Positions 35,262 to 37,886 of a stretch of 64,000 bases of DNA are shown in pieces. The stretch's first letter is position 1, and each line of letters opens with the position of its first letter. The stretch is from Vulcanimicrobiota bacterium (lineage in GTDB: Bacteria; Vulcanimicrobiota; Xenobia; Xenobiales; JADMJV01): contig JAFKGI010000008.1 in assembly GCA_017307785.1 (NCBI GenBank), positions 124,001 through 188,000 of the forward strand, given 5' to 3'. The position numbers and the translations under genes were made by a program. The notes under the pieces are model-generated. The model had not been told where the DNA came from. It worked only from the letters and a program-made list of their open reading frames with translations, and ran no database searches.

Positions 35262-35963
35262 TTAGTGGGCGGCTCCCAGGTTTTTGTCGACATCGAAGCG
35301 ATAGATTTCTTCGAGGTCGCGGCGCCCGCTGACATTGACTTCCAGATCTTTCAACAAGCCGCTTTTCAGGTCGTAGACCCAACCGTGAACGAAAGGACGA
35401 CCGTGTTCGCGCCAGGCTTTCTGCACCGTGAAGGTTTTGCAGACATTATAGACCTGCTCGATCACGTTCAGTTCCACCAGGCGGGCGGTGCGTGCGTCTT
35501 TATCCTCGATAGCGTCCAGCTCGCCGGCGTGCAATCTGTATACGTCCTTGATATTGCGCAGCCAATTGTCGATCAATCCTAATTCAGCGGCTTCCATCGA
35601 GGCGGCCACACCGCCGCATTTGTAATGCCCACAAACGACGATATGTTGCACCTTGAGGTGATTGACGGCGTAATCGATGGCGCTGAGCACGTTAAAGTCC
35701 GTGTGCACCACCATATTGGCAATGTTGCGATGCACAAAGAGGCTACCGGGATCGGTATCGGTGATCACGTCGGTGGAGACGCGACTGTCGGAACAGCCGA
35801 TCCACAACGTATGAGGAGTCTGCCCCTGGGCGAGGCGGTCGAAAAAGGCGGGGTCCTCGGCGGCCATCCGCTCGACGAAGCGCTGATTGCCGGCCAGCAT
35901 GCGCACAACCGAGAGATCGTGCATATCTTTGAGATTCAGGGTGGTTTTGGTGGGGTCTGACAT
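35262..35963 (-). CDS. Beta-class carbonic anhydrase
   Basis: A 233-residue zinc enzyme interconverting CO2 and bicarbonate. The zinc ligands are visible in IGCSDSR (Cys, with the Asp-Arg dyad) and VVCGHYKCGG (His and Cys). FVHRNIANMV and HLKVQHIVV surround them, and the C-terminal half has HGWVYDLKSG. It is cytosolic, with no signal peptide. The ATG at 35963 begins MSDPTKTTLN; an in-frame TTG at 35981 and ATG at 35975 are alternatives, and none has a clear RBS. It lies 40 bp downstream of the ECF sigma gene and 3 bp upstream of the receiver-pseudokinase gene. Confidence 0.93.
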   Translation of the reverse strand: MSDPTKTTLNLKDMHDLSVVRMLAGNQRFVERMAAEDPAFFDRLAQGQTPHTLWIGCSDSRVSTDVITDTDPGSLFVHRNIANMVVHTDFNVLSAIDYAVNHLKVQHIVVCGHYKCGGVAASMEAAELGLIDNWLRNIKDVYRLHAGELDAIEDKDARTARLVELNVIEQVYNVCKTFTVQKAWREHGRPFVHGWVYDLKSGLLKDLEVNVSGRRDLEEIYRFDVDKNLGAAH

Positions 35964-36003
35964 AGGGCAGGGCATTCGCAATCGGGTGGGCTGCCGCCTC
36001 CCG

Positions 36004-36558
36004 CTAGGACTCGCGGTAGTCTTTCAATTGCTCGGCCAGGAATCGGCTGGCGTGGAACATTCGCGATTTCACGGTGCCCACCGGAATTTCCAGAATTTCC
36101 GAGATTTCCGGATATTGCAATTGCTGGTAGTAACTCAGCAGAAAGACCTCTCGCTGCTTGTCGGGCAGCCGCTCGATGGCGGTGCGGATGCGTTCCGCCA
36201 GCATGGTCTGGGAAGAAAGGGTCTCCGGCCCGGGCTGCGCGTCGGCCACGAAGAGAGCGGCTTTCTCCAGCTCCGCTTCGGGCCGCCGGGAGCGGGCTCT
36301 CAGGGCGTCACGGCAAGTGTTCAGGCAGATGGTGTAGAGCCAGGGCCGAAAGAGAGCTCCCACCTTGTAGCTGTCGCGCTTGCGGAAAACCCGCAGAAAG
36401 GTTTCCTGGAACGCGTCCTCGGCCGCGTTGCGCTGTTGCACGACGCGAAAGGCATAGGCGAACAACGGCTTCTCGTAACGCTTAATGAGCAGCTCCAACA
36501 AATGCGTTTCGCCTTTTTGGACGCGCTCCATGAGGGCTTCGTCGGACAGGTCGCTCAT
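36004..36558 (-). CDS. ECF-type RNA polymerase sigma factor
   Basis: A 184-residue RpoE-like sigma-70 factor. Region 2 covers about residues 14-85 (LLIKRYEKPLFAYAFRVV, AEDAFQETFLRVFRK, FRPWLYTICLNTCRDALR). Region 4 covers about 118-175 (LPDKQREVFLLSYYQQLQYPEISEILEIPVGTVKSRMFHA). The divergent gene encodes its likely anti-sigma factor. ECF genes are usually encoded together with their anti-sigma in one operon; the head-to-head layout here with a ~93-bp shared promoter region is less common. The carbonic anhydrase and receiver-pseudokinase genes follow on the same strand. Confidence 0.93.
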   Translation of the reverse strand: MSDLSDEALMERVQKGETHLLELLIKRYEKPLFAYAFRVVQQRNAAEDAFQETFLRVFRKRDSYKVGALFRPWLYTICLNTCRDALRARSRRPEAELEKAALFVADAQPGPETLSSQTMLAERIRTAIERLPDKQREVFLLSYYQQLQYPEISEILEIPVGTVKSRMFHASRFLAEQLKDYRES

Positions 36559-36651
36559 ACTCAGGCCGGGGGTTCGGCTTTTTTTGAACCAAAGCCTGGC
36601 AGACGGCGTAGTCTAAAAAGATTCCCTCAAAGGACAGCGAATACGTTGAAG

Positions 36652-37257
36652 ATGACCTGCGATGACTATCAGGAGCAGCTGCCGGAGCGCGCGCTCGGAC
36701 AGCTGGAGGAAAAGGCGGACGAAGCTCTGGCTCGTCATCTTTCCGATTGTCCGGACTGCCGGGCCCAGTGGGAAATGCTCCAGCTGGGTCTATCCGATTT
36801 GCAGCACTGGCAGGTCGAGGAGGCTCCCAGGGACCTGGGCGACCGCACCATGGCGGCCATCCGCCAGGAAGCCGAGAAAAAGTTGGGATTCTGGGCTCGC
36901 ATCGACCGCGCCCTGGTGCGTTTCGGCGCCCATCGCCCCACGGCTCTGACCGGGCTGGCCACGGCCGCCGTTGCCGTCGTGCTGCTCGGACAGGTGCTCA
37001 GCCCTCACCTCATGCGGGGCCGTTCCAGCAGCGACGGCAGCGCTTGCCAGCGCAACCTCAAGGTGGTCACCCAGGCTTTGGAGGCCTATCGCAAGGAGCA
37101 TTCCGGGGCTTATCCCGACCGTCTCAGTCAGCTGCAGCCTGACTATTTGCAGAGAATGCCGGACTGTCCCGATAGCGGCGACGACACCTACAGCACCGGC
37201 TATCATGTCAGTCCCGATCATCACTCCTTCACGCTGCAGTGCGTTCCGAGCAAGTAG
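36652..37257 (+). CDS. Zinc-finger anti-sigma factor with a pseudopilin-like C-terminal domain
   Basis: A 201-residue single-pass membrane protein. The N-terminal zf-HC2 anti-sigma domain has Cys3, His29, Cys33 and Cys36 (HLSDCPDC). A membrane segment spans ~98-118. The exported C-terminus (~131-201) reads CQRNLKVVTQALEAYRKEH, GAYPDRLSQL, YLQRMPDCP..DDTYSTGY, the pattern of the globular part of type II secretion/type IV pseudopilins (GspG-like), with paired Cys. The ATG at 36652 is used; an in-frame TTG at 36646 is closer to the AAGGA RBS. In the shared promoter region, TGAACC (36585) and GTCTAA (36611) resemble an ECF promoter but the spacing is long. Confidence 0.82.
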   Translation: MTCDDYQEQLPERALGQLEEKADEALARHLSDCPDCRAQWEMLQLGLSDLQHWQVEEAPRDLGDRTMAAIRQEAEKKLGFWARIDRALVRFGAHRPTALTGLATAAVAVVLLGQVLSPHLMRGRSSSDGSACQRNLKVVTQALEAYRKEHSGAYPDRLSQLQPDYLQRMPDCPDSGDDTYSTGYHVSPDHHSFTLQCVPSK

Positions 37258-37271
37258 ACTCTTTCTGGCGC

Positions 37272-37886
37272 ATGCCACCCCCCTGGGTGTGGCTGATCTT
37301 TTCGCTATCCATGCTGATCTTCAGCGCCTCCATGCTGACCTTGCGAGAAGGCCGGCGGTTTCTGTCCAGGCCGCTGACCCCCGGGGAAGAACGTGTGGTG
37401 TCGGCCGCGTTGGAGCTCTACAAGCAGCAAGAAGGTCACGAGCATCCGGTTCTCGTTTCCATGCTCAAGGCTCATCGCATCCGCGCCATGGACAAAATGA
37501 CCTTCGCGCGCCCGGAAGAACGCTCCGCGTTCGGCTACACCGACGAACGCAAGCGGATCTTGCTCAACCCCAACATGTGTTTCACCTGTCAGCAGATGCT
37601 GGCTCCCCGCCTGCGCGGCGAGGTGGCGGACGCCGACCTGGTGGCTACACTGGCCACCTTGCAGCACGAAGTTCGCCACCTGGTGAGTGGAGCTTCCGAG
37701 CTGCTGGCCTATGAAGAAGAGTGGCGCTACGTCTGTCGCACCCGCCACTGGTGCGTGCAGCATGAAATGCCGGGCCTGAGCCTGGAGCTGCTGGAGTGGG
37801 AGCGGCACCTACCGGCTCGTGTGAAAATGCACGTCGGTGCGACCGCTGCCGAGCCCATGCAGAAAAGGATCAGCTCGGCCGAGTAA
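37272..37886 (+). CDS. Membrane-anchored putative zinc metalloprotease (HEVRH)
   Basis: A 204-residue protein with an N-terminal membrane anchor (VWLIFSLSMLIFSASML). An external domain contains TLQHEVRHLVSG, an HExxH zinc-protease signature, followed by SELLAYEEEWRY that could supply the third Glu ligand. Cys pairs occur at FTCQQM and CRTRHWC. No known peptidase family is recognised. It follows the anti-sigma gene by 14 bp. An in-frame GTG at 37239 would overlap that gene. As a membrane protease encoded beside an anti-sigma factor, it is a candidate for regulated proteolysis of that anti-sigma; this is inference from position. Confidence 0.6.
   Translation: MPPPWVWLIFSLSMLIFSASMLTLREGRRFLSRPLTPGEERVVSAALELYKQQEGHEHPVLVSMLKAHRIRAMDKMTFARPEERSAFGYTDERKRILLNPNMCFTCQQMLAPRLRGEVADADLVATLATLQHEVRHLVSGASELLAYEEEWRYVCRTRHWCVQHEMPGLSLELLEWERHLPARVKMHVGATAAEPMQKRISSAE

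Follow-up and report, generated by a model that had tools for sequence, protein, structure and literature searches.

An anti-sigma factor with a pilin-like ectodomain and a predicted ECF regulon of pilin-like envelope proteins in a genus of Candidatus Eremiobacterota

A zf-HC2 anti-sigma head, a single membrane span and an ectodomain related to type IV pilins are joined in one 201-residue protein encoded in the window analysed here, i.e. the whole stretch of 64,000 nucleotides. This fusion was found in all five genomes of the genus (the own genome, G000, and G001 to G004; Candidatus Eremiobacterota), and the ECF-type promoter lying between it and a divergent ECF sigma gene recurs in front of genes for paralogues of the ectodomain. 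From these sequence comparisons we propose a feedback circuit in which the ECF sigma factor and the membrane-bound anti-sigma factor control pilin-like envelope proteins, a reading to which we give a probability of roughly 0.55.

Organization and conservation of the anti-sigma locus

Both the zf-HC2 anti-sigma head and the single membrane span claimed in a preliminary description of the gene were recovered. The N-terminal residues matched Pfam zf-HC2 with an E-value of 4e-6, above the family cut-off, and the NCBIfam anti-sigma model NF052375 covered residues 13 to 129 with an E-value of 2e-12, which is below its equivalog cut-off. The zinc motif residues H29, C33 and C36 are invariant in the alignment of the genus orthologues. 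An AlphaFold2 model of the head resembles PDB entries for the anti-sigma domains of RsiW, RslA, MucA and DdvA, although the Foldseek E-values were weak. Only one hydrophobic stretch, at about residues 97 to 116, was detected, and positive charge is heavier on its N-terminal side.

Features of the anti-sigma locus (positions in the window) and pilin-like genes preceded by the promoter in the genus
Feature	Position	Strand	Remarks
ECF sigma factor, divergent from the anti-sigma gene	36004..36558	-	Sigma70_r2 1e-15, r4_2 2e-18; NCBIfam ECF superfamily
ECF-type promoter TGAACC-N16-CGTA of the anti-sigma operon (predicted)	36585..36610	+	elements identical in 5/5 genus genomes
Anti-sigma factor, zf-HC2 head + TM + pilin-like ectodomain	36652..37257	+	201 aa; Pfam, NCBIfam, orthologues in 5/5 genus genomes
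zf-HC2 anti-sigma head, residues 3-37	36658..36762	+	PF13490; H-x3-C-x2-C zinc motif; model matches RsiW/RslA/MucA
Transmembrane helix, residues 97-116	36940..36999	+	hydropathy; aligns with the N-terminal helix of prepilins; without class III G^F-x3-E
Pilin/pseudopilin-like ectodomain, residues 129-198	37036..37245	+	C132, C172, C197; homology, profile and fold searches
HExxH membrane protein (HEVRH/HEVGH...GASE)	37239..37886	+	overlaps or abuts the anti-sigma gene; alternative start 37272
Pilin-like genes with promoter, G000			C13, C53, C62
Pilin-like genes with promoter, G001			C104, C117, C392
Pilin-like genes with promoter, G002			C12
Pilin-like genes with promoter, G003			C3, C6
Pilin-like genes with promoter, G004			C14, C58

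The other four genomes of the genus retain the fusion at 59-83% identity, together with the sigma and HExxH genes, and this level of identity supports real coding of the reading frame. The ECF sigma factor is 80-92% identical within the genus; its gene lies near the anti-sigma gene in all five genomes, with one gene between them in G004. The HExxH gene adjoins the anti-sigma gene in 5/5 genomes. In the genus alignment, the HExxH motif and the following Glu of its product are invariant; the protein gave no match in Pfam, NCBIfam or the PDB, and a search of 58 genomes recovered nothing outside the genus except one marginal match. It may represent an orphan metalloprotease. A beta carbonic anhydrase gene (35262-35981) is located directly behind the ECF sigma gene and is also found nearby in every other genome of the genus, although in some it lies at a greater distance or on the opposite side.

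The protein is similar to zf-HC2 anti-sigma factors of the RsiW-RslA type in its head, its single span, the nearby ECF gene and the ECF-type promoter upstream. Unlike these, it carries a pilin-derived ectodomain, the sigma and anti-sigma genes are divergent and many of the predicted target transcripts are leaderless. The preliminary description had proposed a search for the same fusion elsewhere, and this search returned none beyond the genus. The pilin profile, applied to about 90 of some 130 zf-HC2 matches from 38 relatives in the phylum, detected nothing but the genus orthologues, and a scan of 84,980 species genomes using exact conserved peptides recovered the four genus members and one match limited to head and span. 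Literature searches found no paper joining an anti-sigma factor with a pilin ectodomain.

Pilin-like ectodomain

The external domain had been described as GspG-like on the basis of the stretch AYRKEHSGAYPDRLSQL and two cysteines. The stretch is present and sequence homology bears out the assignment, with weaker support from the fold search; the external cysteines, however, are three (C132, C172 and C197), all invariant in 21 paralogues and orthologues. The ectodomain alone had no pilin match in Pfam, and own-genome paralogues and profiles were used instead. Homology was detected at more than 20 other places of the own genome, with matches down to E=3e-16, including prepilins with textbook GFTLIELMIVI class III N-termini (L008, L009, L012, L015). 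The anti-sigma factor aligns with the own-genome prepilins from the membrane helix through the last cysteine with small gaps, and the positions invariant in this alignment include Y146, P155, Y165 and P170 in addition to the three cysteines. Searched against the PDB, the family profile matched GspG (5wda, E=2e-7), geopilins (2e-6) and further pilins. Since this profile contains real prepilins, a cleaner test is the comparison of the anti-sigma span and domain alone with NCBIfam GspG, which gave an E-value of 0.003 for a match spanning helix and core. At the level of sequence, the ectodomain is thus homologous to type IV pilins and GspG beyond chance.

In a fold search with the full-length AlphaFold2 model, the anti-sigma head alone was matched, and a model of the domain only was therefore made. 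Its core residues were predicted with confidence (pLDDT about 90). Pilins or pseudopilins were the six best PDB matches and at least 9 of the best 12, with TM-scores of at most 0.48 and Foldseek E-values of 0.65 or worse, so that the structure prediction advised in the preliminary description places pilins and pseudopilins first.

The N-terminal helix and the ALExYxxDxxGxYP core are common to the ectodomain and the GspG/type IV pilin family, including DUF1559-type prepilins. In contrast to this family, the C-terminal part is short with conserved cysteines and an anti-sigma head is fused to the helix. Furthermore, both the class III signal G^[FM]-x3-E and Glu5 were absent from the anti-sigma factor, as judged from the alignment and a motif test, indicating that the protein is not a processed prepilin. 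Lack of the leader, together with the attached cytoplasmic head, makes incorporation into a filament unlikely.

A shared promoter and the predicted regulon

Comparison of the regions upstream of the ECF gene revealed that TGAACC and CGTA are identical in 5/5 genomes while the 16-base spacer between them is variable. This candidate promoter resembles the SigW type and lies ahead of the anti-sigma gene in four genomes. In G004 it precedes a DUF2339 gene, which sits between the promoter and the anti-sigma gene in a likely operon that runs on into the anti-sigma and HExxH genes. A similar arrangement was observed in G006, a member of another family, where the closest ECF homologue (55% identical) and a DUF2339-like gene point away from each other. 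This DUF2339-like gene carries the same promoter, its ATG following CGTA at 8 nt, and the contig ends inside it, leaving the anti-sigma partner of the ECF orthologue out of view. The DUF2339-like gene of the own genome is on another contig and has retained the promoter. Conservation of the promoter at ECF loci and DUF2339 genes suggests, by position, that it is tied to the ECF sigma factor. The exact motif was found near none of the other ECF genes identified in the own genome.

The exact TGAACC-N16-CGTA sequence occurs 52 times in the five genomes, compared with 27 times for a reversed control. At many sites CGTA is followed by a start codon at a distance of exactly 8 or 9 nt, as expected where transcripts are leaderless, and the transcripts concerned are predicted to be of this kind. 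A search in which the sixth base was free and a start codon was required, subsequently filtered to TGAAC[C/T] and CGTA, yielded 33 sites in the genus, whereas base composition predicts about 8. Genes with the pilin-like domain stand behind 11 of these 33 sites (see Table). Using domain-match counts and gene totals estimated from genome size, this enrichment had P values of 3e-6 in the own genome and 1e-6, 0.017, 2e-4 and 2e-4 in the others; the pooled P, near 1e-18, overstates the case because the genomes are related and the regulon genes are not independent. In G005, which is devoid of a close ECF orthologue, 0 of 8 motif sites were at the pilin-like genes listed.

The pilin-like proteins of the predicted regulon are membrane-anchored. 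The class III motif was absent from eight of them by script and from two more (C53 and C58) by eye; the eleventh gene, C117 of G001, was located by position only. Conversely, the promoter was absent from the three canonical own-genome prepilins tested, and the motif was also absent from four own-genome pilin-like genes (L005, L010, L019, L020). No pilus assembly gene was identified behind any motif site. The regulatory link suggested in the preliminary description is thus strengthened by the recurrence of the promoter before pilin-like genes, but the predicted regulon does not contain a canonical pilus or type II secretion system (T2SS). Additional targets include genes encoding a MoxR-type AAA ATPase and a 51-aa membrane protein (four genomes each), a DUF3299 lipoprotein, a GDSL-like lipoprotein, DUF2339 and others. 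The start codon of the MoxR-type genes (G000:C30, G001:C373, G002:C143, G003:C2) may be placed right where CGTA ends or 9 nt further on.

As the same promoter is found at the anti-sigma operon and at pilin-like genes, the sigma factor probably controls paralogues of the ectodomain of its own anti-sigma factor. In a tree of the domains, that of the anti-sigma factor showed no particular closeness to the pilin-like proteins of the regulon; its neighbour was L002, a membrane-anchored protein whose gene is without the motif.

Proposed circuit and alternative signals

In the circuit that we propose, the cytoplasmic zf-HC2 head would, as in known ECF systems, bind the ECF sigma factor and tether it to the membrane; release or cleavage of the anti-sigma factor would set it free. 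Span and ectodomain would constitute a complete pilin core in which the anti-sigma head replaces the cleavable leader, which would keep the core in the inner membrane for good. The sigma factor is predicted to read TGAAC[C/T]-N16-CGTA promoters, which would drive its own anti-sigma operon as well as mostly leaderless envelope genes, prominently those of the membrane-anchored pilin-like paralogues. Span and ectodomain may report the pool or the folding state of pilin-like proteins, either by packing against them or through common handling machinery, and a change in this pool or state would cause the anti-sigma factor to be released or proteolysed and, in turn, more pilin-like proteins to be expressed. 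M50 site-2 proteases are encoded in the own genome.

The closest precedents for this logic are RsgI6 and PilS-PilA. The GH10 module of RsgI6 is 57% identical to the xylanase Xyn10D, found among the sigma-I6-dependent genes (PMC4711584). The RsgI anti-sigma-I factors of Clostridium thermocellum thus resemble the present protein in having ectodomains homologous to regulon products, and differ from it by the Sigma-I family, the carbohydrate-binding or GH ectodomains and the polysaccharide signals. In Pseudomonas, pilins are reported to control their own expression by contacting the sensor PilS within the membrane (Kilmury and Burrows 2016, cited in PMC6058289). PilS-PilA is likewise a pilin feedback through a membrane sensor; PilS, however, is a histidine kinase without a pilin domain and its target is a canonical pilin. 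Because the sensor carries the domain of its own putative targets, and given these two precedents, we favour a feedback on the pilin-like pool or state, and the locus is best read as a variant of the ECF/anti-sigma sensor with a logic like that of RsgI or PilS-PilA. Against this feedback count the divergent orientation of the sigma and anti-sigma genes, which is unusual in that they do not form one operon, the position of the anti-sigma domain in the tree and the own-genome pilin-like genes without the motif.

The last two observations keep a general envelope signal a serious rival, if an appreciably less probable one. The pilin-like domain would here be merely a stable ectodomain, general envelope stress (redox, unfolded protein or wall damage) being sensed via protease access, and the pilin-like genes would simply be part of an envelope regulon. 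The other genes behind the promoter (MoxR ATPase, DUF3299 lipoprotein, DUF2339, GDSL-like and small membrane proteins) fit such a regulon, the domain is promiscuous in the phylum and its conserved cysteines would permit redox sensing. A generic ectodomain, however, gives no reason to expect the regulon to hold pilin-like genes far more often than by chance, as it does.

Alternatively, the HExxH membrane protein might provide a dedicated input as a protease that recognizes the anti-sigma factor by its pilin domain and acts on it. Its co-conservation with the adjacent or overlapping anti-sigma gene, its near confinement to the genus and its invariant HExxH and Glu agree with this role. We nevertheless consider it unlikely, since the protein matches no known family and the charges flanking its span point, tentatively, to a catalytic domain on the cytoplasmic side, which would make access to the ectodomain doubtful. 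Finally, although GspG and pilin homology and the abundance of T2SSF (84 matches) and T2SSE (27 matches) components in the own genome would suit an ectodomain that competes for pilin contacts to sense whether a canonical type IV pilus or T2SS pseudopilus assembles or fails, as first suggested, this is improbable given promoter-bearing pilin-like genes without a class III leader wherever tested, canonical prepilins without the promoter, the lack of identified assembly genes behind motif sites and an ectodomain without the E5 and leader needed for processing.

The pilin-like domain was detected in 50 of 58 genomes of the phylum, with up to 49 matches per genome. Its fusion partners include five Hanks kinases from two genomes (Pkinase E=2e-35 to 7e-51) as well as DUF3352, ankyrin, SnoaL-like, lipoprotein and other proteins, and the anti-sigma fusion is thus one case of a wider reuse of the pilin core as a receptor-like ectodomain. 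By extension, the pilin core of Eremiobacterota, borne by an anti-sigma factor in this genus and by Hanks-type kinases in other families, could be a general receptor ectodomain sensing sister proteins, made by a dedicated ECF regulon, through homotypic packing, with pilin-pilin recognition serving as a signalling code outside the pilus; we regard this generalization as speculative and rather doubtful. Very few Eremiobacterota are in culture. If the feedback on pilin-like proteins is correct, it would provide a defined circuit for this phylum, with sigma factor, sensor, promoter and targets, in which a pilus-subunit fold is reused as a signalling receptor, and would hint at the purpose of the phylum's unusually many pilin-like proteins. 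The promoter prediction can be tested in vitro without culturing the organism.

As to the inventory of the own genome, the T2SSF matches correspond to about 42 PilC/GspF-like platform proteins, which together with the T2SSE matches makes a large pilus/T2SS-type set. The kinases are of the Hanks Ser/Thr type with spans and a three-cysteine C-terminal ectodomain (L230, L232, L234 and L238 in G033, L233 in G026). DUF3352-like proteins with one to three copies of the domain were also observed (L006/L011, L222, L226, L227), Pfam DUF3352 being shown for L222.
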